Source: Nitrospirota bacterium | GTDB taxonomy: Bacteria > Nitrospirota > Thermodesulfovibrionia > Thermodesulfovibrionales > JdFR-86 | Length of the DNA stretch: 54,331 nucleotides | Direction of reading: 5' to 3' | Assembly: GCA_037386965.1 (NCBI GenBank) | Contig: JARRLN010000025.1 | Coordinates: forward strand, 1-54,331 | The notes under the pieces: model-generated | What the model was told of the DNA's origin: nothing | Databases searched by the model: none | What the model saw: the letters and a program-made list of their open reading frames with translations, nothing else | Shown: positions 16,723 to 54,331 of the stretch, one piece after another | Layout: the number at the start of each line of letters is the position of its first letter | Position numbering within the stretch: position 1 is the stretch's first letter | Program-made: the position numbers and the translations under genes

Positions 16723-16731
16723 TTGAATTGC

Positions 16732-16820
16732 CCTGGGGGAGGCACCGAAATGCCTGAGAGTCTCCAGTTAGGAGAGACCCCTGAACCTGATACGGGTCAT
16801 GCCGGCGTAGGAAAGGGTAC
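16732..16820 (+). promoter_or_regulatory. TPP riboswitch (THI element)
   Basis: The segment carries the diagnostic blocks of the thiamine pyrophosphate aptamer: GGGG near the 5' end, TGCCTGAGAG, then GACCCCTGAACCTGATACGG, and ATGCCGGCGTAGGAAAGG at the 3' end. It lies between a consensus promoter and thiG-thiE-thiC, the expected place for TPP feedback control. No clear terminator hairpin follows, so control is probably at translation, but the expression platform is unusually short because a thiS remnant begins only ~30 nt later. Confidence 0.95.
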
Positions 16821-16848
16821 TTTGGGTGGGAAGAAACCGTGTCTAGGT

Positions 16849-38708: not shown

Positions 38709-39284
38709 ATGAAAAAGGCCATAAAGATACTGGTGCTTCTGCCCGTCGTCATCCTGGCCGGGGTCCTGGTGCTGGGCGCCCTGGGAGGGGGCGAGAAGAC
38801 GCGGAAGCGGCAGGCGCGGCCTTCCATCGGAGAGCCCGCGCGGGACTTCACCTATCCCGGCCTCGACGGCAGGGACGTGAGCCTCTCGGACTATTACGGC
38901 ACGAAGGTGGTCTTCGTCAATATCTGGGCCACCTGGTGCACCGAGTGCAAGAAGGAGCTTCCCACGGTCCAGGCCCTGTACGAGAGGTTCCGGGGAGAGG
39001 ACTTCGAGGTCCTGGCCGTCAGCATCGACGCCCTGGGCGAGAAGGCCGTGGCGCCCTTCATGAAGGAGATGGGCCTGACCTTCCCCGCCCTGCTCGATAC
39101 CGCCGGGTCCGTGCAGCTTCTCTACGGGACGACGGGCGTGCCGGAGTCCTTCATCATAGACAAGAAAGGGCGGGTCGCCTTCGTGGAGATAGGGGCCGGG
39201 GACTGGAGAGAGCCGGAAAAGCAGGCCCTCGTGCGGAGCCTCGTCTCCGAGACGTCCGGGACCGCCCGCGCGGAGGCCAGATGA
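38709..39284 (+). CDS. TlpA/ResA/CcmG-like thioredoxin
   Basis: The 191-aa product has an N-terminal anchor (ILVLLPVVILAGVLVLGAL), then a thioredoxin fold: ARDFTYPGLDGRDVSLSDYYG, VFVNIWATWCTECKKELP with active-site C77 and C80, and TTGVPESFIIDKKGRVAF with the cis-Pro. It is tethered in the periplasm and delivers reducing power to apocytochromes or CcmH, the CcmG role. It overlaps ccmE by ATGA. Confidence 0.9.
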   Translation: MKKAIKILVLLPVVILAGVLVLGALGGGEKTRKRQARPSIGEPARDFTYPGLDGRDVSLSDYYGTKVVFVNIWATWCTECKKELPTVQALYERFRGEDFEVLAVSIDALGEKAVAPFMKEMGLTFPALLDTAGSVQLLYGTTGVPESFIIDKKGRVAFVEIGAGDWREPEKQALVRSLVSETSGTARAEAR

Positions 39285-39691
39285 GGGGAAAAACCAAGGT
39301 CCTGGTGGTCTCCGTCCTGCTCTTGGCGTCCTTCGGCTACCTTGTCTTCATAGGCATGCGCGAGGGAAGCATGTTCTATCTCGAGGTCTCGGAGTTCCGG
39401 GCGCAGGCCGAGCATCTGGACGGACGGAAAGTGCGCGTCAACGGCGAAGTGGTGCAGGGCTCGGTGGCCTACGACCCCGAGACCCTGAGGCTGGCCTTCA
39501 CCCTCAAGGACCCCAAGGGGCCGGAGAGGCTGAACGTCCTGTACAGGGGAGCCCCGCCGGACCTGATGCAAAAGGACGGGGTGACCCTGGTTGCCGAGGG
39601 GGCCTTTGACCGGAAGCGGGACCTCTTCGTCTCCAGGAGGCTTCTGGTGAAGTGCCCCTCGAAGTACGAGAAGAAGGAGGGGGCGTCATGA
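39281..39691 (+). CDS. ccmE: Heme chaperone CcmE, CxxxY variant
   Basis: The 136-aa product has an N-terminal anchor and the CcmE OB-fold: MFYLEVSEFRAQAEHLDGRKVRVNGEVVQGSV and LVAEGAFDRKRDLFVSRRLLVKCPSKYEKK. The heme-attachment site, HxxxY in E. coli (H130), is C125-P-S-K-Y129 here. Such CxxxY CcmE proteins are known from archaea and sulfate reducers, where Cys binds heme covalently. It carries heme from CcmC to CcmF. Confidence 0.93.
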   Translation: MRGKTKVLVVSVLLLASFGYLVFIGMREGSMFYLEVSEFRAQAEHLDGRKVRVNGEVVQGSVAYDPETLRLAFTLKDPKGPERLNVLYRGAPPDLMQKDGVTLVAEGAFDRKRDLFVSRRLLVKCPSKYEKKEGAS

Positions 39692-41694
39692 CCCAGGCGG
39701 GCAGCCTTTCCCTTCTGTTCTCCCTGTTTCTTTCCGTGCTGGTCTTCGCCGGGCTCTTCCTGGGCCTGAGGAGGAAGGACGGCCGGTTCGTCGAGGCCTC
39801 CTACCGGGCGGCCGACGGCGTTTTCTTCTTCATGAGCGTCGCCGTGGGGGCCCTCCTCTACGCGTTTCTGACCGACGACTTCAGGGTGGCTTACGTGGCG
39901 GGGTACTCCGAGCGGGCGCTCCCTCTTTTCTACAAGATAACGGGGCTCTGGGCGGGACAGAACGGCTCGCTCCTCTTCTGGGGGTGGCTCATCGCCCTTT
40001 TCACCTTTATCCTGGTGAGGAAGAACGAAGGGAAGCCCGGCTCGCGCTTTCTCCCCTACGTCCTTATCTTTCTGAACCTCACCGTCCTGTTTTTCCTGGT
40101 GCTCGTGAACTTCGTCACCCCCCCGTTCGAGCTGGCCGCGCGGGTGCCCGCAGACGGCAACGGCCTGAACCCGCTTCTTCAAAACCCGGGGATGGTCTTT
40201 CACCCACCCACGCTCTACCTGGGCTACGTGGGCTTCACGGTGCCCTTCTCCTTTGCCATGGCGGCCCTGGCGATGGGCGAGCTCGGCGACTGGTGGATAA
40301 AGAAGACCCGGGCCTGGACCCTGTTTTCCTGGCTCTTCCTCACCCTGGGCATCGTCTTCGGGGGCTGGTGGGCCTACAGGGAGCTGGGCTGGGGCGGGGT
40401 GTGGGGATGGGACCCCGTGGAGAACTCCTCCCTTCTTCCCTGGTTCACCTCCACGGCGTTTCTCCATTCCGTCATGGTTCAGGAAAGGCGGGGGATGCTC
40501 AAGGTCTGGAACCTGGTCCTCATCATCCTGACCTACCTCTTGAGCATCTTCGGCGCCTTCGTCACCCGAAGCGGCATCATCCAATCGGTGCACGCCTTCG
40601 GGCAGTCCGGGGTGGGCTACGTGTTTCTGGCCTTCCTCGCCCTCGTGGGCGTCCTGGGCGTCTATCTCGTCGCCACCCGGTACGGCAAGCTCAAGGAGAA
40701 CAACCCGAAGCTCGAATCGGTCGTCTCCAGGGAAAGCTCCTTCCTCTATAACAACCTCATCCTGATCGGCCTTTGCTTCGCCACGCTCTGGGGCACCGTC
40801 TTCCCCCTGGTCTCGGAGGCCGTCAAGGGCGTGAAAATCTCGGTGGGCCCGCCGTTTTTCAATACGGTGAACTCCCCCATGTTCCTCCTGCTCCTTCTGC
40901 TCATGGGCCTCTGCCCCCTGCTGGGGTGGCGAGGGACATCCGTCAGGGGAACCCTCAAAAACCTGCTCATCCCTTCCGTACCCATGGCCCTTTCACTGCC
41001 CCTTCTCTACCGGGTTGGCGTAAGGAGCGCCATGCCCCTGTTTTTCTACGCCTTCTCGCTCTTCGTCGTCGTCAGCCTCGCCAGGGAGTTTTATATCGGC
41101 ACCCGGGCGCGGGTGAAGAACGCCGGGGAGAAATGGCTCCGGGCCTTCGTCACGCTCCTGGGCAGAAACCGGAGACGGTACGGGGGGTACCTCGTGCACG
41201 CCGGCATCGTGCTCATGGCCCTGGGGCTTGCGAGCTACGGGTATTACCAGTACAAGGAGGAGTTCACGCTCTCGCCGGGCCAGGAGGCGTCGGTGAAGGA
41301 GTTTAACCTGAGGTACGTCGGGCTGACCTCGGAGCGGGAGAGGAACTACGAAGGCGTGAGCGCCCTGGTGGAGGTCTACCGCGACGGTACGCTCCAGAGG
41401 GTGCTCCGGCCCGAGAAGCGCTTTTACCAAAACGGCGAGCCCACCACCGAGGTGGCCATCATGCAGGGCCCGGAGAAGGACCTCTACCTCATCCTGAGCG
41501 GATGGACCCCCGAGAGGAGCATCAGCATGACCGTGGTGGTCAACCCGCTTCTCTCCTGGGTGTGGACGGGCACGGGCGTGGCGGTCCTGGGGGTGGTGTG
41601 GGCGATGCTTCCGGGCGCAAGGAGGGAGGAGGAGACGGTGGACGCCATGGTCGCGGAGTATCTTCTCCGGTTTCAAAGGAGCGCGGGCGCATGA
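39688..41694 (+). CDS. ccmF: Cytochrome c heme lyase subunit CcmF
   Basis: The 668-aa multi-spanning protein has the CcmF blocks KITGLWAGQNGSLLFWGW, HPPTLYLGYVGFTVPFSFA, the WWD domain WGGVWGWDPVENSSLLPW, TSTAFLHSVMVQERRGML and FVTRSGIIQSVHAF. It ligates heme to apocytochrome CxxCH motifs. The ATG at 39688 overlaps the ccmE stop (ATGA). Length is normal. Confidence 0.97.
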   Translation: MTQAGSLSLLFSLFLSVLVFAGLFLGLRRKDGRFVEASYRAADGVFFFMSVAVGALLYAFLTDDFRVAYVAGYSERALPLFYKITGLWAGQNGSLLFWGWLIALFTFILVRKNEGKPGSRFLPYVLIFLNLTVLFFLVLVNFVTPPFELAARVPADGNGLNPLLQNPGMVFHPPTLYLGYVGFTVPFSFAMAALAMGELGDWWIKKTRAWTLFSWLFLTLGIVFGGWWAYRELGWGGVWGWDPVENSSLLPWFTSTAFLHSVMVQERRGMLKVWNLVLIILTYLLSIFGAFVTRSGIIQSVHAFGQSGVGYVFLAFLALVGVLGVYLVATRYGKLKENNPKLESVVSRESSFLYNNLILIGLCFATLWGTVFPLVSEAVKGVKISVGPPFFNTVNSPMFLLLLLLMGLCPLLGWRGTSVRGTLKNLLIPSVPMALSLPLLYRVGVRSAMPLFFYAFSLFVVVSLAREFYIGTRARVKNAGEKWLRAFVTLLGRNRRRYGGYLVHAGIVLMALGLASYGYYQYKEEFTLSPGQEASVKEFNLRYVGLTSERERNYEGVSALVEVYRDGTLQRVLRPEKRFYQNGEPTTEVAIMQGPEKDLYLILSGWTPERSISMTVVVNPLLSWVWTGTGVAVLGVVWAMLPGARREEETVDAMVAEYLLRFQRSAGA

Positions 41695-42059
41695 CCCTTG
41701 TGTTGCTGATAATGGCGGGGCTGGCCCTGGCGGCCTTCGCCTATGTTCTGCTGCCGCTTTTTCAGGAGAAGGCCTGGCCCTTCGCCGAGGGGCATGAGGC
41801 GGGCGAGCTCAGAAGGACGCGCAGGCAGGCCCTCTGGGCCATAGCGGACGTGGATGACGAGTACCAGATGGGCAAGCTCTCGGAGCAAGACCACGCGGCC
41901 CTGCGGGCCGCCCTCAAGAAGGAGGCCCTTCCCGTCCTGAAACGGGAGCGGCATCTCATGGGCGAGGCCCGGAGGCTCGACGGCAAGGGCCTCGAACGCG
42001 GCCTCAAGGAAGACCTTCTGAGAGAGGTGGTGCGGATTTGCGGCACGCGGGATTCCTGA
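41691..42059 (+). CDS. CcmI-like short protein
   Basis: The 122-aa product starts with a membrane helix (VLLIMAGLALAAFAYVLLPLF) followed by a charged helix with the CcmI-like ALWAIADVDDEYQMGKLSEQDHAALRAALKKEAL. CcmI normally has two helices plus a TPR domain that binds apocytochrome; here only the first module exists. It overlaps ccmF by ATGA and the next gene by 22 nt. Confidence 0.7.
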   Translation: MTLVLLIMAGLALAAFAYVLLPLFQEKAWPFAEGHEAGELRRTRRQALWAIADVDDEYQMGKLSEQDHAALRAALKKEALPVLKRERHLMGEARRLDGKGLERGLKEDLLREVVRICGTRDS

Positions 42060-43150
42060 TAGGGGCATTACTTTTTCTCCTCGTGGGGATGGCCGATGCC
42101 GCCCGGGTCACGGTCGAGGTGACAAACGGCACCTCCGGCGAGCCCATGGCCTCCCACCCCCTGAGCCTGTCGGTGGGCTCCCTCACGGCCCGGGGAGACT
42201 TCGAGGCGAGGGAGAGCCGCACCGTGAAGACCGACGACGGGGGCGTCTACAGCGGAAGCCTGGACGTTGCGCCGGGCGAAGAGCTGAGGGCCCGGGCCGT
42301 GCACCGGGGGATTTCCTACTCGGCCATGGCCGAGGCGAGCGGGAATAAAGACCTGGCCCTCAGCCTTCCGGTCTACGAGATCACGGACCACAGGGAGGGG
42401 GTCTCCGTAGAGGAGCGCTCCATGTACGTGGTGCCCAAGGGCGAGAGGTTCGTGCAGGTGTACGAGACCCTGACGGTGGTGAACCGGGGCACGAAGACCT
42501 ACGTAGGCAAATGGAGCGACGACCTGAGCGCAACCCAGGTGCTCTTCATCCCCATGCCGAAGTACTACATGCTGACCTCGCTCGAGGGCATCCCCCAGGG
42601 GAAGGCACTCACCGCCGAGAAGGGCATCGTTACACTCAAGGAGCTCAAGCCCGGCACCCACCGGATAGCCCTCGGCTACTTCGTCCAAAGCGACACGGGC
42701 CGCTTCGACCTTTCGCTCCTGAGCGCCCCCGGCGCCCCCGAGACACGGTCCCTCGTGCTCGCCTTCTCCGAGGAGAAGGGGTGGAACCTCAAGGCGGGCG
42801 GCCTCACCAGGACGGGCCTCAGCGAGGCGGGGGGAAGGGCCTTCAGGGTCTACAAGGGGAGCCCGGGGAGCGCGGCGCACATCACGCTCTACGGGCCGTC
42901 CTACGTGAACACGGCGGGCATCTGGTCCCTCTCGGTGGGGCTTCTTTTCCTGGCGAGCCTTGCCGGGGTCGTGCTTCTCAGGGAGCCCGGCCGGCGGTGG
43001 TCCCTCAGGCGGGAGAGGCGGCGCCTGGAGGCCCTTCTCGAGAGGTTCGACGAGGAAGCCCGGGAGGGCGAGGTCCGCAGGTACTACCATCCCTTTGCCC
43101 AGGTGCTGAGGGAGAGGCTCAGGGAGATAGAACAGAGGTACGGCGCATGA
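42038..43150 (+). CDS. Ccm-operon-embedded exported protein of unknown function
   Basis: A TTG at 42038 with AGAGGTGG upstream starts LRHAGFLIGALLFLLVGMADA, a signal peptide. The 370-aa product has a carboxypeptidase-regulatory-like beta domain (RVTVEVTNGTSGEPMASHPLSLSVGSL), a second beta region (EERSMYVVPKGERFVQVYETLTVVNRGTKTY) and a C-terminal membrane helix followed by a basic cytoplasmic helix (~residues 320-370). It lies between ccmI and ccmA with overlaps on both sides, so it is co-translated with the heme machinery. No named family is recognised. Confidence 0.78.
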   Translation: MRHAGFLIGALLFLLVGMADAARVTVEVTNGTSGEPMASHPLSLSVGSLTARGDFEARESRTVKTDDGGVYSGSLDVAPGEELRARAVHRGISYSAMAEASGNKDLALSLPVYEITDHREGVSVEERSMYVVPKGERFVQVYETLTVVNRGTKTYVGKWSDDLSATQVLFIPMPKYYMLTSLEGIPQGKALTAEKGIVTLKELKPGTHRIALGYFVQSDTGRFDLSLLSAPGAPETRSLVLAFSEEKGWNLKAGGLTRTGLSEAGGRAFRVYKGSPGSAAHITLYGPSYVNTAGIWSLSVGLLFLASLAGVVLLREPGRRWSLRRERRRLEALLERFDEEAREGEVRRYYHPFAQVLRERLREIEQRYGA

Positions 43151-43860
43151 GCCTTCTCGAGCTCAGGGGCATATCCAAGGAGTATCACGGCAAAAGGGCC
43201 TTGAAGGACGTGAGCCTCGACGTCCGGGAGGGGGAGCGCCTCGTCCTGTTCGGCCCCAACGGCGCTGGCAAGACCACCCTCATCAAGATAATGTCCGGCA
43301 TCATGGCCCCCGCGGCGGGAGAGATACTCTACCAGGGGGCTCCCCGGCGGGACGGCTCCCTCAAGCGGGACGTCTTTTTCCTCGGGCACCGGAACGCCCT
43401 TTACGAGAGCCTCACGGTGCGGGAGAACATCGATTTCATAAGAAGGCTCTTCAGCCCGGCGCTCAACGGCTCCGCTCCCTCCACGGACGAGCTGCTCAGG
43501 GAGCACGGCCTCTTGGAGAAAAGGGACGAGCCCGTCCGCGAGCTCTCCCAGGGGATGAAGAGGCGTGTGGCCATAGCCAAGGGCTTCCTCACGGGACAGA
43601 GGATATTCATTCTGGACGAGCCCTTCTCGGGGCTGGACCTCCGGTGGAGGCGGTCCGTGCAGGAGAAAATCGGGGAGCTGAAGGGCCGGGGAAAGTCCCT
43701 TGTCCTCTGCACCCACCTGGTGGAGGAGGGGCATGCCCTGGCCGACCGGGTGGCCTTCCTCGACCGGGGACGCCTCCTCCGCCTGGCGGCAAAGGAGGAC
43801 CTGGACGTCCCGGGCGTTCACGAGCTTTTCCGGAAGGCCGGGGGGGAGGCGCAGGGATGA
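43147..43860 (+). CDS. ccmA: Heme export ABC ATPase CcmA
   Basis: The 237-aa ATPase has Walker A FGPNGAGKTTLIK, signature LSQGMKRRVAIAKG, Walker B IFILDEPFSGLD and H-loop VLCTHLVEEG. With CcmB and CcmC it forms the complex that releases holo-CcmE. It is ATGA-coupled to the gene before and to ccmB after. Confidence 0.92.
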   Translation: MSLLELRGISKEYHGKRALKDVSLDVREGERLVLFGPNGAGKTTLIKIMSGIMAPAAGEILYQGAPRRDGSLKRDVFFLGHRNALYESLTVRENIDFIRRLFSPALNGSAPSTDELLREHGLLEKRDEPVRELSQGMKRRVAIAKGFLTGQRIFILDEPFSGLDLRWRRSVQEKIGELKGRGKSLVLCTHLVEEGHALADRVAFLDRGRLLRLAAKEDLDVPGVHELFRKAGGEAQG

Positions 43861-44537
43861 GCTTCGTGCGCGGCGCCATGGCCGTCATGGGAAAGGACCT
43901 TCGCCTGGAGCTGAGGGGCAAGGACTCCCTGAGCCTCATGTTCTTCCTGTCCCTTCTTTTCCTGGTCATATTCAACTTCGCCCTGGACATCGACAGGGAC
44001 AACGTCGCCGCCCTGGCGCCGGGCGTCCTCTGGGTCATCTTCGCCTTCTCGGGCATCCTGGGCATGGGGCGGACGAGCATGGCCGAGAGGGCCGAGGACG
44101 CCTTCCTGAGCGTGGTCTTCTCCCCGGCAAGCGAAGAGAGCTTCTACATGGGAAAGGTCCTGAGCAACCTGGTCTTCCTGCTCGTGGCCGAAGCGCTGAC
44201 CATGACGTGCTTTGCCGTCCTGTTCGATTACGAGAAGCTCCTGCTCTCCCTGCCGGGCCTCCTGCCCCCGCTGGTCCTGGGCACGCTGGGCTTTGCGCTG
44301 GTGGGAACGCTCTTCTCCTTTCTGACCACGACGTCACGGTACGGCGAGGTGCTTCTGCCTTTCCTGTTTCTGCCGGTGGTAAGCCCGGTGGTGCTGGGAG
44401 GGGTTTCCTCCATGACGGCGGTGCTTGAGGGGAGGCCCCTGGAGGAGGCCTGGCGGTGGATCGAGGTCATGGGGGTCTTCGACGTTCTTTATTTCTGCAT
44501 TGCGCTGCTTGTTTTCAAGCATATCATCGAGGAGTGA
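43857..44537 (+). CDS. ccmB: CcmB membrane subunit
   Basis: The 226-aa product has six hydrophobic segments and CcmB motifs: VMGKDLRLELRGKDSLSLMFFLSLLFLVIFNFAL, VLWVIFAFSGILGMGR and FLFLPVVSPVVLGG. It is the permease partner of CcmA. Start ATGA overlaps ccmA. Confidence 0.92.
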   Translation: MSFVRGAMAVMGKDLRLELRGKDSLSLMFFLSLLFLVIFNFALDIDRDNVAALAPGVLWVIFAFSGILGMGRTSMAERAEDAFLSVVFSPASEESFYMGKVLSNLVFLLVAEALTMTCFAVLFDYEKLLLSLPGLLPPLVLGTLGFALVGTLFSFLTTTSRYGEVLLPFLFLPVVSPVVLGGVSSMTAVLEGRPLEEAWRWIEVMGVFDVLYFCIALLVFKHIIEE

Positions 44538-44544
44538 AAACGTT

Positions 44545-45219
44545 ATGAGAACCGGAAAAATACAGGCAGTCCTCTTCGGGTTCCTGCTCTTTCTGCTGCC
44601 CCTGGACTTCTATCTCATCTTCGGGGTCGCCCCGACCGAGAGGATAATGGGGGACGTGCAGAGGATTTTCTACATACACGTTTCCCTGGCGGTGAGCGCC
44701 TACCTGGCCTTTGCGGGGGTGTTCGCCGCAAGCGTGCTGTTTCTCTGGAAGAAGGACCTCCTCTGGGACACCGTGGCCTCTTCGGCCGCGGAGGTGGGCG
44801 TGCTTTTCTCCACCCTGGTCCTTCTGACCGGCTCGCTCTGGGCGCGGCCCGTCTGGAACGTCTGGTGGGCCTGGGACCCCCGGCTGGTGAGCATGTTCAT
44901 CCTCTGGTTCATCTTCGTGGGGTACTTCCTCCTGAGAAGAAGCATATCCGACTGGCACCGGAGGGCGCGGTACGGGGCCGTCATCGGCATCATCGGGTTT
45001 CTGGACGTCCCCATCGTGCGCCTGGCCACCACGTGGTGGCGCTCGGTCCACCCGCGCCTGAAGGGCGAAGGCGGGGGCCTGGAGCCCACCATGCTCATGG
45101 TGATGCTCTTCAGCATGGCCACGTTTCTTCTTTTTACGGTCTTTCTGTTCCTGTTCCGCTATCGCATAGCCCGGAGCGAGAACAGGCTTCTCGTCATCTC
45201 GAAGAGAATGGAGGTCTGA
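44545..45219 (+). CDS. ccmC: Heme handling protein CcmC
   Basis: The 224-aa product has six helices and the WWD-type signature RPVWNVWWAWDPRLVSMFILW flanked by conserved His residues (FYIHVSLAVSAY and WWRSVHP). CcmC loads heme onto CcmE. The ATG at 44545 is 7 nt after the ccmB stop. Confidence 0.95.
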   Translation: MRTGKIQAVLFGFLLFLLPLDFYLIFGVAPTERIMGDVQRIFYIHVSLAVSAYLAFAGVFAASVLFLWKKDLLWDTVASSAAEVGVLFSTLVLLTGSLWARPVWNVWWAWDPRLVSMFILWFIFVGYFLLRRSISDWHRRARYGAVIGIIGFLDVPIVRLATTWWRSVHPRLKGEGGGLEPTMLMVMLFSMATFLLFTVFLFLFRYRIARSENRLLVISKRMEV

Positions 45220-49433: not shown

Positions 49434-52217
49434 CTAAAGGGCGTGGGTCTTCTGCCTTGTCTCGAGCCAGCGCTCCAGGGCGCCCGCCTCCATGGGCTCG
49501 GCGATAACGAACCCCTGGCCGTAGCGGCACCGCAGGCGCTTGAACCTGGCCACCTGCTCCGGCTGCTCAAGGCCCTCCACGATGACGTCCAGCCGGAGGT
49601 TATGGGCCAGGAAGATGATGGACTTGACGATCTGCAGGTTCTCCTGGTTGCCGTTCATGTCCCGGACGAAGGAGCGGTCTATCTTCAGCGCGGTAATGGG
49701 GAAGCGGTGGATGTAGCTGAGCGAGGAGTACCCCGTGCCGAAGTCGTCTATGTGCACGCCCACGCCCATGTGCCTCAGGCGGTTGAGCATGGTGGCGGCG
49801 GACTCGGCGTTCTCCATGAGGACGCTCTCGGTGAGCTCCAGGGACAGGACCCGAGGGTCGAGACCCGTTTCGGCCAGGACGTCGGAGACAAGGTCCAGAA
49901 AGGAGGACTGGGAGAACTGCCTGCTTGAGATGTTCGCGCTGATGGACAGGGGCGGCTTCATGGGGAAGAGCTTCTGCCAGTGGGCCAACTGGCGGCAAGC
50001 TTCTCTCAGGACCCAGGCCCCGATGTCCATGATGAGGCCGGTCTCCTCGGCCAGGGGGATGAACTCCTGGGGCATGACGAGGCCGCGCTTGGGATGCTCC
50101 CACCGGAGCAGGGCCTCGAAACCTACGATGGTCTCGCTGGCGAGGTCCAGGACGGGCTGGTAGTGGAGGACGAACTCCCGGTTCTCCGTCGCCCGCCGGA
50201 GCTCGGTCTCCAGCGTCAGGTGGGCCATGGCGTCGGCGTGCATCCGGGTGTCGAATATCACGTGGCAGGCGCGGCCCCGGCCCTTGGCCCTGTACATGGC
50301 GATGTCGGCGTCCCGGAGGATGTCATCGGCCCGGGTGTAGCCCACGGAGCTGAAGGCGAGCCCGATGCTCGCGGTGACGAACACCTCGTGACTGCGCAGG
50401 GCGAAGGGCCGGGAGATCTCCTCCTGGATGCGGCCGGTTATGTTCAGGGCCTCCTCCTTGTCCTTGAGTTTTTCAAGGAGGATGGCGAACTCGTCCCCGC
50501 CGAAGCGGGCCACCGTGTCGCCCTGCCTCAGGCATCCCTGAAGCCGCTGGCTGACGGCCTCCAGGAGCTTGTCCCCCGCACTGTGCCCCAGGCTGTCGTT
50601 GATGACCTTGAAACGGTCCAGGTCAAGAAAGAGCACCGCAAAGAGGTCCGCGCTCCCCCGGAAGCCGCTCATGAGCCCATGCTCCAGGCGGTTGATGAAC
50701 AGGGCCCTGTTGGGAAGGCCGGTGAGCGTGTCGTGGAAGGCGTCGTGGACAAGCTGCTCCTCGGCCATCTTGCGCTCCGTGACGTCGGTCTGCGAGCCGG
50801 CTATCCGGACGGCCTCGCCCTGGCGGTCCCGCACCGCCAGGCCCCGGCTCAAGACCCACCGGTAGGTGGAGTCCCTGTGCAGGACGCGGTATTCGCACTC
50901 GAACTGGGTGGCCTTGCCCGCCAGGTGCGCCTCGAGCTTCGCCTCCAGGTGTTCCCTGTCCCGCGGATGCACCCGCCGGAACCACTCCTCGGGGCTGTCG
51001 CCAATGTCCTTCTCATCGAACCCGAGCATGGACTTCCACCGGGGGGAGTAGTACACGCGCATGCGGCGGAGGTCCCAGTCCCAGAGGCCTTCGTTTGCCC
51101 CCCGCGCCGCCAGGGCGTAGCGCTCGGCACTCTTTCTGAGCCCCTCTTCCGTCCGCTTCCGCTCCGTGACGTCCCGGAAGCACTGGATGACGTGGGTGAC
51201 CTCGCCCCCCTGGCCGATGACGGGGTAGTAGTAGATGTCCATCCAGCGCTCCGAGCCCTCCGGGTCCGCGATGCGGCGCTCCTCCCGGCAGGGGTCCTTG
51301 GAGCGGAAAGCCTTTTCCGCAACACAGCCCGGACAGACGCCGTCCCGGCCGTGGAGCACCCGATAGCAGGGCTTCCCGAGGAGCTCCCCCGCGGGCAAGC
51401 CCTTCAGGGCCGCGTAATCGGCGTTCAGCCGGGCAAAGACGAAGTTCCCGTCAAGGACGGACAGGGGGTCTCGGATGCCCGCAAGAAGGGAGGAGACGAA
51501 CCGCTCCGAGCGCGTGCGCCGGGCGAGCTTCTCCTCCATGCGGGAAAGGCTTTCCCCCAGGGCTTCCATCATGGCATCGAACTCCGCGGCCAGCTCATCC
51601 CGTCCGCCCCGGCCCGCGCCGTGGGGGAGGCCCTCCGGGAGCCTTCCGGAGGAAATCCTCCGGGTGGCCTCCCTGAGGAAATCCACCGGCCGGGCGAAGA
51701 CCATGCTCAGGCGCAGGGCGGCCAGCACGCCCAGAAGAAGACCCAGGGCCAGAGAGGCATGGATGAGGCTTCGAAGCGCCTCCGCCCTCCGCCCGTTCTG
51801 GGCGGAGAGCGCCTCCATCCGGGCCCGGGCGAGCCGGGAAACGTCCTCGAGCTCCGTAAGGAGCTTCTTCGCCGGCTCTCGGGGGAGCCCTTCTCCGTAC
51901 CGCGCGAACAATGCCTCGATGCCCGCAATCCTCTCCGAGACGGAAGGGGCGTGGTGGCAGCCGGAACAGTCCCGAACCCTCTCCTCGACGGATTCTGCGG
52001 TGAGAAGCCTTTTGTCTTCCGTCCGGACGCCGGCGGCGGCGAGCCCCGCCCGGTCCGGCGAGGTGGATGGAAGCAGGGCCCCCCTGAGGCCCTCCATATC
52101 GTGGAGCCGTGCGAGGCGGGAGAGCCGGAGGGTGTTATCGAGGGAGACCGCGGCCGTGACGGCCGCCAGGGCCAGAAGAAAGAGGGCCAGAAGGGGCAGG
52201 AGCAGTTTCCTGTTCAC
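49434..52217 (-). CDS. Heme-c-type sensor GGDEF-EAL protein with two PAS domains
   Basis: The 927-aa product has an N-terminal membrane helix, a periplasmic domain with CSGCHH (C84, C87, H88; heme c site), a second helix (~150-170), a HAMP-like linker, PAS1 (~240-360, with an extra GKPCYRVLHGRDGVCPGC cysteine set), PAS2 (~365-490), GGDEF (HDTLTGLPNR...RFGGDEF, with the I-site RQGD) and EAL (GFEALLRWEHP, DDFGTGYSSLSYI, KIDRSFV). Both catalytic motifs look intact, so it may make and degrade c-di-GMP. GTG start overlaps a 19-codon upstream ORF. A c-di-GMP-type aptamer and terminator precede it. Confidence 0.9.
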   Translation of the reverse strand: MNRKLLLPLLALFLLALAAVTAAVSLDNTLRLSRLARLHDMEGLRGALLPSTSPDRAGLAAAGVRTEDKRLLTAESVEERVRDCSGCHHAPSVSERIAGIEALFARYGEGLPREPAKKLLTELEDVSRLARARMEALSAQNGRRAEALRSLIHASLALGLLLGVLAALRLSMVFARPVDFLREATRRISSGRLPEGLPHGAGRGGRDELAAEFDAMMEALGESLSRMEEKLARRTRSERFVSSLLAGIRDPLSVLDGNFVFARLNADYAALKGLPAGELLGKPCYRVLHGRDGVCPGCVAEKAFRSKDPCREERRIADPEGSERWMDIYYYPVIGQGGEVTHVIQCFRDVTERKRTEEGLRKSAERYALAARGANEGLWDWDLRRMRVYYSPRWKSMLGFDEKDIGDSPEEWFRRVHPRDREHLEAKLEAHLAGKATQFECEYRVLHRDSTYRWVLSRGLAVRDRQGEAVRIAGSQTDVTERKMAEEQLVHDAFHDTLTGLPNRALFINRLEHGLMSGFRGSADLFAVLFLDLDRFKVINDSLGHSAGDKLLEAVSQRLQGCLRQGDTVARFGGDEFAILLEKLKDKEEALNITGRIQEEISRPFALRSHEVFVTASIGLAFSSVGYTRADDILRDADIAMYRAKGRGRACHVIFDTRMHADAMAHLTLETELRRATENREFVLHYQPVLDLASETIVGFEALLRWEHPKRGLVMPQEFIPLAEETGLIMDIGAWVLREACRQLAHWQKLFPMKPPLSISANISSRQFSQSSFLDLVSDVLAETGLDPRVLSLELTESVLMENAESAATMLNRLRHMGVGVHIDDFGTGYSSLSYIHRFPITALKIDRSFVRDMNGNQENLQIVKSIIFLAHNLRLDVIVEGLEQPEQVARFKRLRCRYGQGFVIAEPMEAGALERWLETRQKTHAL

Positions 52218-52273
52218 GGCAGAGGGTCCCGCCCAGGGGCCGGGGGCGCCGCCCCCGCTTTTTCTCTCCCCAT
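52214..52273 (-). CDS. 19-codon upstream ORF coupled to the GGDEF-EAL gene
   Basis: ATG 52273 with GGAGG 5 nt upstream opens MGREKAGAAPPAPGRDPLP and its TGA overlaps the GTG of the sensor gene (GTGA). The main gene has no other SD, so ribosomes probably enter here. A GC hairpin (GCGGGGGC/GCCCCCG) lies within it. Confidence 0.5.
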   Translation of the reverse strand: MGREKAGAAPPAPGRDPLP

Positions 52274-52283
52274 TACGTCCTCC

Positions 52284-52313
52284 AATAAGAAAGCCTACCC
52301 GAAAGGGATAGGC
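52284..52313 (-). terminator. Riboswitch terminator before the GGDEF-EAL gene
   Basis: On the minus strand GCCTATCCC, TTTC, GGGTAGGC form a stem followed by TTTCTTATT. It sits ~18 nt after the aptamer and before the ORF. Confidence 0.65.
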
Positions 52314-52330
52314 CGCTGGTTGCTACGCCG

Positions 52331-52421
52331 CCAATTCGACAGCCCCTCTATCCCGGCCGGTGGCCTTTAAGGACAGGTGGCTTTGCGCCCCCCGGTTACC
52401 CGGGGTTTACCCTTTCGTTGG
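52331..52421 (-). promoter_or_regulatory. c-di-GMP-I (GEMM)-like riboswitch aptamer
   Basis: Minus strand: P1 CCAA/TTGG, GAAAGGGTAAACC, a GTAA-capped stem CCGG/CCGG, GGCGCAAAGCCACCTGTCC, then GGATAGAGGGGCTGTCGAA. The GNRA-capped helix, GCAAAGCC block and GATAG...GCTG end follow the GEMM-I layout. It precedes a c-di-GMP enzyme gene, and a second copy occurs at 53831. Confidence 0.7.
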
Positions 52422-52555
52422 TCCGGCTTCCGTTGTTTCTCCTCCCATACTCAAGCACAGGCGTCTTGGAAAGTCAAGGATTCGGCTCATAGACGGCGGG
52501 ATTCTCCGGACATCGTTTTTCTCGCTGGATTTTTCCTATACAATGGACATAGAAA

Positions 52556-52575
52556 GGGGGCGCCCGGGCGCCCCC
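52556..52575. repeat. Perfect 20-bp palindrome in the leader of the LigD-type gene
   Basis: GGGGGCGCCC is followed directly by its reverse complement, 18 nt before the ATG at 52593 and next to the SD. It could be an operator or an RNA hairpin hiding the SD. Confidence 0.6.
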
Positions 52576-52592
52576 CGGGAGGAGGTTTCCAC

Positions 52593-53180
52593 ATGGCCCA
52601 AGAGGACAAGCTCAATCGATATCGGGAAAAGCGGGACTTTCAGAAGACCTCGGAGCCCAGGGGGAAGGCCCGCAAGGCGAAGAGAAAGGGGCCCCTCTTT
52701 GTCATCCAGAAGCACCGGGCGAGGCGCCTGCACTACGACTTCAGGCTGGAGGCGGGCGGGGTTCTCAAGTCCTGGGCCGTGCCCAAGGGCCCTTCCCTGG
52801 ACCCCGGCGAGAAGCGCCTGGCCGTCCCCACGGAGGACCATCCGCTTCAGTACGGGGACTTCGAAGGCACCATACCGGAGGGCGAGTACGGCGCCGGGAC
52901 GGTGATGGTCTGGGACACGGGGACATACCGGAACCTGAGGGAGGACGAGGGGGTCTCCATGCAGGAGGCCCTGGAGGCAGGGCACGCGGCCTTCTGGCTC
53001 CAAGGAAAAAAGCTCAGGGGAGGGTTCGCCCTGAACCGCACGCACTTCCGGGGCAAGGAGAACTGGCTCCTCGTGAAGATGAAGGACGAGGAGGCCGACC
53101 CCCGGCGGGACCCGGTGCGCACGGAGCCGGACAGCGCCCTGAGCGGCAGGAGCATGGAGGAGATAGAGGAGGAGGGCTGA
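52593..53180 (+). CDS. Stand-alone LigD-type 3'-phosphoesterase
   Basis: The 195-aa product matches the N-terminal PE domain of LigD: FVIQKHRARRLHYDFRLEAGGVLKSWAVPKGPSLDP with H41, H47 and D49, EDHPLQYGDFEGTIPEGEYGAGTVMVWD with H83, and a C-terminal WLLVKMKDEEAD. These enzymes trim 3'-phosphate or ribonucleotide ends in NHEJ repair. Neither Ku, ligase nor polymerase domains are nearby. GGAGG upstream fixes the start. A TACAAT -10 lies near 52540. Confidence 0.88.
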   Translation: MAQEDKLNRYREKRDFQKTSEPRGKARKAKRKGPLFVIQKHRARRLHYDFRLEAGGVLKSWAVPKGPSLDPGEKRLAVPTEDHPLQYGDFEGTIPEGEYGAGTVMVWDTGTYRNLREDEGVSMQEALEAGHAAFWLQGKKLRGGFALNRTHFRGKENWLLVKMKDEEADPRRDPVRTEPDSALSGRSMEEIEEEG

Positions 53181-53830: not shown

Positions 53831-53924
53831 CCACCGAAAGGGCAAAGCCAGGGGAACCCGCACAGCCGTCCTGGCGGCGCAAAGCCACCTGTCCCGCGGG
53901 GGGATAGAGGGGCTGTCGAAGTGG
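53831..53924 (+). promoter_or_regulatory. Second c-di-GMP-I (GEMM)-like riboswitch aptamer
   Basis: P1 CCAC/GTGG, GAAAGGGCAAAGCC, a CCAGG/CCTGG stem, GGCGCAAAGCCACCTGTCC and GGATAGAGGGGCTGTCGAA. The last two blocks are identical to the copy at 52331-52421, while the P1 and inner stems differ with compensating changes. Confidence 0.7.
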
Positions 53925-53936
53925 CAGTATGCACCG

Positions 53937-53964
53937 GGCCCACCCTTTCGGGGGTGGGCCTTTT
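53937..53964 (+). terminator. Riboswitch terminator
   Basis: GGCCCACCC, TTTCGG, GGGTGGGCC followed by TTTT, 12 nt after the aptamer. A 9-bp perfect stem. Confidence 0.8.
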
Positions 53965-54176
53965 GGTTGCGGGGCACCGGGGGTGAGGAAAAGAGCCCGG
54001 GGTGGGTTCCCTCCGGTGTCCAAGGGCCAGGACGGACAGCCCGTGCCCTCCGGGTGTCCGCCCTCGGGCCCCTGTCCGGCGCCGCGCCGGGGACCACAAC
54101 ATGCACGACGTGCCCCCTCCGGCGCCGGACAGTCCCTCCTTCCGTCCTCCCCCTGTCCTTTTCGGCCTAATGGCGA

Positions 54177-54182
54177 TATAAT
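54177..54182 (+). promoter_or_regulatory. -10 box TATAAT before the last gene
   Basis: Perfect TATAAT ending 9 nt before the ATG at 54192. It would give a second, riboswitch-independent transcript. Confidence 0.5.
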
Positions 54183-54191
54183 CTGAGAGCC

Positions 54192-54331
54192 ATGGTGAGC
54201 GCCGTCGAACTCGCCTCAGGGCTTCTCATCCTTGTCGGGGCCCTCATCCTCATCCTTTCCCTGGCCATGGGGGTGAGGCTTCTCCGATTGGTGCCCGGGG
54301 AGCTTCGCCCGAAGTGGCTCGCAGCTCTGTT
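54192..54331 (+). CDS. N-terminal fragment of a membrane protein
   Basis: The 46 codons seen encode MVSAVELASGLLILVGALILILSLAMGVRLLRLVPGELRPKW, one long N-terminal membrane helix and a basic amphipathic stretch that resembles the start of membrane-bound sensor kinases or cyclases. The rest is outside the window, so no function can be given. It lies downstream of a c-di-GMP-like aptamer. Confidence 0.55.
   Translation, partial: MVSAVELASGLLILVGALILILSLAMGVRLLRLVPGELRPKWLAAL

Follow-up and report, generated by a model that had tools for sequence, protein, structure and literature searches.

The window analysed here, a stretch of 54,331 nt that makes up the entire contig 25 of a draft genome of 2.54 Mb in 137 contigs, holds on its minus strand a gene for a sensor protein with GGDEF and EAL domains, preceded by a leader with a riboswitch of the GEMM-I class (also called c-di-GMP-I, for cyclic diguanylate). 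The closest full-length relatives of the protein come from metagenome-assembled genomes of Nitrospirae/Thermodesulfovibrionia. The aptamer is referred to as RS1, and its pocket type, G20/A47/U92, as GAU. The elements of the leader and the gene are as follows.

52335..52421, minus strand: GEMM-I (c-di-GMP-I class) aptamer RS1, RF01051 58 bits, with helix P1 extending to 52330
52411, 52384 and 52339, minus strand: pocket positions G20, A47 and U92 of RS1, from alignment mapping
52410..52417, minus strand: RS1 aptamer 5' strand CGAAAGGG (J1/2, G20, G21), predicted 5' half of an antiterminator
52300..52307, minus strand: CCCTTTCG, terminator 5' arm and loop, predicted 3' half of the antiterminator
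52292..52314, minus strand: RS1 intrinsic terminator hairpin GGCCTATCCCTTTCGGGTAGGCT with T-rich tail, recurring in GAU relatives
52214..52273, minus strand: mini open reading frame (mini-ORF) of 19 codons (MGREKAGAAPPAPGRDPLP), Shine-Dalgarno sequence TGGAGG, with a stop codon that overlaps the main gene's GTG
49434..52217, minus strand: sensor GGDEF-EAL protein, 927 aa, GTG start
51723..52139, minus strand: periplasmic CxxCHH domain region and second transmembrane helix (aa 27-165), no Pfam family
51951..51968, minus strand: CSGCHH c-type haem motif, aa 84-89, read from the sequence
51153..51476, minus strand: PAS_4 domain with conserved C284, C295, C298 and C310
50796..51056, minus strand: PAS_3 domain
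50271..50741, minus strand: GGDEF domain with RxxD I-site and Asp at the Hypr-Ser position (NDSLGHSAGD)
49494..50204, minus strand: EAL domain with full catalytic set

The first-pass annotation of this stretch had placed a GEMM-like aptamer and a terminator upstream of the gene, and both are confirmed: RS1 matches RF01051 with 58.0 bits (E=8e-9), above the cut-off of 35, and a terminator-like hairpin lies at 52314-52292 on the minus strand. Three features went beyond that annotation, namely the changed base at position 92 of the pocket, the mini-ORF with its Shine-Dalgarno sequence between the RS1 terminator and the main gene, and another riboswitch copy, RS2, on the plus strand at 53831-53920, which also scores above the cut-off.

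53831..53920, plus strand: second GEMM-I aptamer RS2, GAU pocket like RS1, RF01051 48.2 bits, P1 to 53924
53936..53961, plus strand: strong RS2 terminator with CCCTTTCGG, complementary to the RS2 5' strand

Within 53831-54331 (+), the GAU aptamer of RS2 and its very strong terminator are followed by a sole plausible ORF start, at 54192 (MVSAVELASGLLILVGALILILSLAMGV...), and this frame runs off the contig end.

In the numbering of the Vc2 riboswitch, the ligand is recognised by G20, A47, A48 and C92, while C93 pairs with G14 (PMC3764141). Both RS1 and RS2 carry U92 in place of the C that pairs with a guanine of the ligand. RS1 therefore departs from the canonical GEMM-Ia pocket (G20, A47, C92), by its U at position 92, and neither aptamer has the A at position 20 that defines GEMM-Ib, which is found in L002, L003 and G120; the majority of the aptamers of relatives are G20/C92. 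The Rfam labels c-di-GMP-I-GGC (RF03167) and c-di-GMP-I-UAU (RF03168) were rejected for RS1 and RS2, given that the scores fall under both cut-offs (54.7 and 52.9 bits for RF03168, with a cut-off of 65.9) and that the pocket bases differ, position 20 being a G. L002 and L003, on contigs 12 and 73 of the same genome, are two more GEMM-I aptamers, A20/C92 by alignment, and that of L002 lies upstream of a gene for a short secreted protein.

A search with a model of the GAU group found such aptamers across the phylum. In an alignment of 24 GAU sequences, 96% of the pair cells are paired; compensatory change on both sides is seen at 15 of the 27 pairs, a level reached by 0 of 500 shuffles, and this covariation bears out the three-helix junction of the RF01051 class. 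The group shares features of J1/2, of P3 (CCU/AGG) and of the expression platform, and, as judged from these sequences, the GAU type is a coherent group in the phylum, unlike scattered single changes. A shortened J1/2 was rejected as a hallmark of the group, given that it is present in ordinary relatives; a search for the aptamer by a loose DNA pattern was dropped, as its matches were mostly unrelated and occurred at about control rates, and a GEMM-like match upstream in G191 proved false.

In GAU leaders the 5' arm of the terminator holds CCTTTTCG or CCCTTTCG, the complement of CGAAAAGG or CGAAAGGG in the aptamer, including G20 and G21. For RS1 the complementarity of 52410-52417 with 52300-52307 is perfect, the pairing probability in the ligand-free intermediate is 0.98-0.99, and the minimum-energy ligand-free fold of the leader includes the antiterminator helix. 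An antiterminator of at least 8 bp with a probability above 0.5 in ligand-free intermediates was found in 15 of 19 GAU leaders, compared with 13 of 46 other relatives (Fisher p=0.0003) and 13 of 380 shuffles. Given that the 5' strand of the aptamer can pair with the 5' arm of the terminator, an OFF switch is predicted, in which the ligand frees the terminator. A translationally coupled mini-ORF between the terminator and the GGDEF-EAL start is seen in the window and in G288 (L165, 13 codons, ATGA overlap), and short ORFs also lie behind some other GAU leaders.

The pairing of a riboswitch with a GGDEF-EAL gene recurs in at least five other genomes, directly in G288 and through a phnD gene in G017, G417, G120 and L067. 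In G288 a GAU riboswitch lies directly upstream of the CxxCHH GGDEF-EAL orthologue, again with a terminator and the 13-codon mini-ORF; in L067 and G017 it lies upstream of phnD-GGDEF-EAL. Within the genus of G017, the orthologous operon, with proteins 72-87% identical, is preceded by G20/U92 in G017, G20/C92 in G417 and A20/C92 in G120, indicating that the association of riboswitch and enzyme is conserved while the pocket shifts. Further GAU riboswitches were found upstream of a PAS-GGDEF gene (G403), a REC-HD-GYP candidate (G374) and an HD-domain gene (G008). Enzymes of c-di-GMP metabolism lie behind 7 of 25 GAU riboswitches versus 3 of 42 (p=0.03), an enrichment that gives p=0.12 after leaving out the loci found via the enzyme itself.

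The ORF at 49434-52217 encodes, by domain search, PAS_4, PAS_3, GGDEF (E=1.6e-46) and EAL (E=3.9e-75) domains. It was aligned with L006, L007, L065, L066 and L067 (six sequences, 44-49% identity to the window protein), and the GTG start at 52217 is credible because all six begin at the same point. As had been proposed on first sight, the window protein has intact GGDEF, I-site (RxxD, here RQGD) and EAL motifs; these, including E, N, E, DD, K, E and Q of the EAL domain, are shared by the five orthologues, so that the signature catalytic residues of a diguanylate cyclase and of an EAL phosphodiesterase are both present. The activity of this enzyme and its net direction are predictions from these residues. 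The position equivalent to Asp344, where Hypr GGDEF enzymes, the synthases of 3',3'-cyclic GMP-AMP (cGAMP), have a Ser, is an Asp in the window enzyme and its orthologues (NDSLGHSAGD), and a canonical c-di-GMP enzyme is therefore expected. The position was assigned after the alignment of PleD with GacA. The PAS_4 cysteines C284, C295, C298 and C310 are invariant in the six orthologues and may form a metal or redox site.

The CSGCHH motif (aa 84-89) falls between the two N-terminal transmembrane helices, which supports the proposal of a periplasmic haem site as far as the position is concerned, while attachment of the haem is a prediction. The two Cys, the two His and P91 are invariant in seven homologues. 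Both things expected of a c-type haem sensor, a conserved periplasmic CxxCH motif and a maturation system, are present, the latter about 4 kb away as had been described:

38936..45219, plus strand: ccm cluster (CcmE, CcmF, CcmA, CcmB, CcmC), system I cytochrome c maturation

Based on the motif, the periplasmic domain is expected to carry one c-type haem. The dependence on this cluster that had been proposed is generic to all c-type haem proteins, even though the cluster itself is there.

No Pfam family matches the CxxCHH region, apart from HAMP in orthologues, and six homologues searched at E up to 5 gave no match to the profile of the sCache_heme family (PF11845, PMC12889525). When the phylum was searched with a profile of the CxxCHH domain, 54 of 227 genomes had it; at the 44 loci examined, the domain is mostly coupled to a histidine kinase or to GGDEF-EAL as output. 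A structure model of the window protein itself was of low confidence (pLDDT, the predicted local distance difference test, of 52) and was set aside. The model of the L065 orthologue is an all-helical four-helix bundle with CxxCHH at the turn of helices 2 and 3 (pLDDT 68). Among its top structural matches are NarQ, Adeh_2942 and two sensors in complex with binding proteins, LytSN with XylFII and TorS with TorT; matches of helical bundles are unspecific, and these are compatible with a sensor that might be fed by a binding protein. Among the 50 structural matches listed there is no Cache or cytochrome c' entry, which excludes neither fold. Taken together, the observations point to an uncatalogued c-haem sensor domain, predicted to be a four-helix bundle, common to kinases and c-di-GMP enzymes.

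A PhnD-like gene (PF12974) lies directly upstream in 26 of the 44 loci, within approximately 60 nt and often with a 4-nt overlap, before kinases and GGDEF-EAL genes alike. The proposal that the haem serves redox or gas sensing is plausible and is nonetheless incomplete, since this usual partner suggests a further input delivered by a binding protein. It may even be that CxxCHH proteins sense chiefly through the PhnD-like protein in trans, for example through the partner of a kinase on contig 15, with the haem setting only redox poise or stability. We hold this to be a serious alternative of somewhat lower probability, given that the gene pairing and the bound forms among the structural matches agree with it and that AioX/AioS (PMC5908839) and TtrS/ThsS (PMC5408782) provide precedents, whereas the bundle matches are unspecific and the window copy has no phnD neighbour and is short of approximately 19 residues of the domain. 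The place of the phnD-like gene of relatives is occupied in the window by the mini-ORF at 52214-52273. On contig 15 of the same genome (L250), a phnD-like gene overlaps a gene for a CxxCHH-HAMP-GAF-histidine kinase, the usual pair of the family.

The explanation that we prefer, with a probability of about 0.5, is that the leader is an OFF-type transcriptional GEMM-I riboswitch with a natural U92 pocket that controls a haem-c sensor GGDEF-EAL protein. Without ligand, the aptamer 5' strand CGAAAGGG, which contains G20, would pair with the 5' arm of the terminator and allow read-through; with a bound cyclic dinucleotide, this strand would be kept in the aptamer, the terminator would form and the gene would be turned off. 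The product would be an inner-membrane sensor whose periplasmic part is a four-helix CxxCHH domain, followed by two PAS domains and by GGDEF and EAL domains with their catalytic residues intact. The periplasmic domain would be descended from a sensor family that works beside a PhnD-like binding protein. The sequence itself, the covariation, the recurrence, the pairing that predicts control by termination and the residues of the domains carry this reading; the haem, the ligand, the sign of control and the net activity are its predicted parts. Several observations weigh against it. No riboswitch was detected at the close orthologues L065, L066 and L006, a simple scan found no promoter-like site, and the OFF sign is predicted from folding energies alone. 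In addition, the ligand guanine that pairs with C92 has no Watson-Crick partner in U92; in 24 of 24 GAU sequences the first base of J1/2 (A) could pair with U92, which might thus extend P1 without touching the ligand, and a GacA-like candidate cGAMP synthase is encoded in the same genome.

The ligand of RS1 is predicted to be c-di-GMP, a choice that we favour slightly, on account of the family identity, the chemistry of the enzyme itself and the other c-di-GMP turnover genes behind GAU riboswitches. If so, the enzyme's own product feeds back on its gene, with negative feedback for a net cyclase and bistable positive feedback for a net phosphodiesterase; if the ligand were cGAMP, the result would be cross-talk. 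Of the closed loop that had been proposed, the control of the gene by a cyclic-dinucleotide riboswitch stands by position and by its recurrence in at least five other genomes. The reading of the ligand as a product of the enzyme itself is partly supported, with U92, the G20/C92 and A20/C92 pockets of orthologous loci and the candidate cGAMP synthase on the other side.

This candidate is L189 (contig 9, 29816-31198), a GAF-GGDEF protein of 461 aa with Ser at the Hypr position (NDTHGHLVGS). Its best match in the PDB is 6d9m, a fusion of a response receiver/GAF with the diguanylate-cyclase family, which we take to be the Hypr GacA structure.

The alternative that GAU reads 3',3'-cGAMP, placing a c-di-GMP enzyme under a second messenger made by another enzyme, is less probable than c-di-GMP, although it keeps a substantial share. 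In this arrangement G20 would take the guanine and U92 would be the partner of the adenine, which inverts the A20/C92 pocket of GEMM-Ib. In GEMM-Ib, A20 confers selectivity for cGAMP and A20G restores that for c-di-GMP (PMC6456294), and an engineered G20A/C92U aptamer accepts cyclic di-AMP, so that U92 goes with adenine (PMC9049102). The three pocket states at one locus within one genus and the GacA-like GGDEF of the genome agree with this alternative. A GHxxGS-type motif occurs in 16 of 17 GAU genomes, but a Hypr-like pattern is widespread, with 125 of 227 genomes of the phylum showing it, and therefore this co-occurrence is weak and discriminates poorly. The genome already has two A20/C92 aptamers, and in G344 a GAU riboswitch is present and no GacA-like protein was found, which favours c-di-GMP, although this genome is 88% complete. 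A bolder form, which we consider unlikely, is that GAU is a third specificity class of GEMM-I, with cGAMP bound in reversed orientation (guanine at G20, adenine at U92) and genes switched OFF, and that changes of single bases have moved the CxxCHH GGDEF-EAL operon from the control of one messenger, c-di-GMP or cGAMP, to that of the other; if true, a sensor with haem and binding protein would be connected to the networks of both. It is likewise doubtful that U92 merely lowers affinity, leaving an ordinary sensor of c-di-GMP set for higher concentrations, a sub-case of the preferred reading as to the ligand in which U92 changes without a change of specificity and the pocket drifts freely among relatives: G20 and C92 are described as less conserved than A47 (PMC9049102) and the pocket states do swap at one locus, but the GAU group is coherent in J1/2, P3 and platform.

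Among the neighbours, an ORF at 52377-53180 (+), divergent from RS1, encodes a stand-alone 3'-phosphoesterase domain of DNA ligase D (LigD_N), and its actual start is probably near 52594. A thiamine pyrophosphate riboswitch (63.6 bits) lies at 16725-16830 (+), with thiG (16886) and thiC (18363) downstream.

One genus in which a single operon is preceded by G20/U92, G20/C92 and A20/C92 offers a natural test series for the change of second-messenger specificity in a riboswitch. In C. difficile, genes for c-di-GMP turnover change in transcription in response to c-di-GMP itself (CD630_07570, PMC6200980), and feedback as such would therefore not be new. Relative to the literature compared, three things appear to be new: the GAU riboswitches as a group together with their platform, the locus with three pocket states, and the family of CxxCHH sensors paired with PhnD.

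Compared with known systems, RS1 and RS2 share with the Vc2-type GEMM-Ia riboswitches of V. cholerae (RF01051) the covariance-model score, the P1-P2-P3 architecture, G20 and A47, and differ by having U, not C, at position 92. A U at the C92 position is also the consensus of c-di-GMP-I-UAU (RF03168), and the clan matches, but in contrast to RF03168 and RF03167 position 20 is G rather than U and position 47 is A rather than G. The GEMM-Ib cGAMP riboswitches of Geobacter likewise show a one-base change of the pocket in the same scaffold, with a GacA-like candidate in the genome here; in the window the change is at position 92 and not 20, and OFF control by termination is predicted, whereas an ON platform is described for Geobacter (PMC6456294). 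The sCache_heme or Tll0287-like domains (PF11845) and GSU0582 and GSU0935 of Geobacter also join a periplasmic CXXCH sensor domain to signalling modules, whereas the window domain has no PF11845 match and is tentatively predicted to be all-helical and not an alpha/beta Cache. Finally, a PhnD-type or other periplasmic binding protein feeds the sensor in AioX-AioS (PMC5908839), TorT-TorS, XylFII-LytS and TtrS/ThsS, the last with a PhnD-like domain fused to the sensor (PMC5408782); here, the sensor has CxxCHH, its output can be GGDEF-EAL, and the window copy stands without a binding-protein gene.

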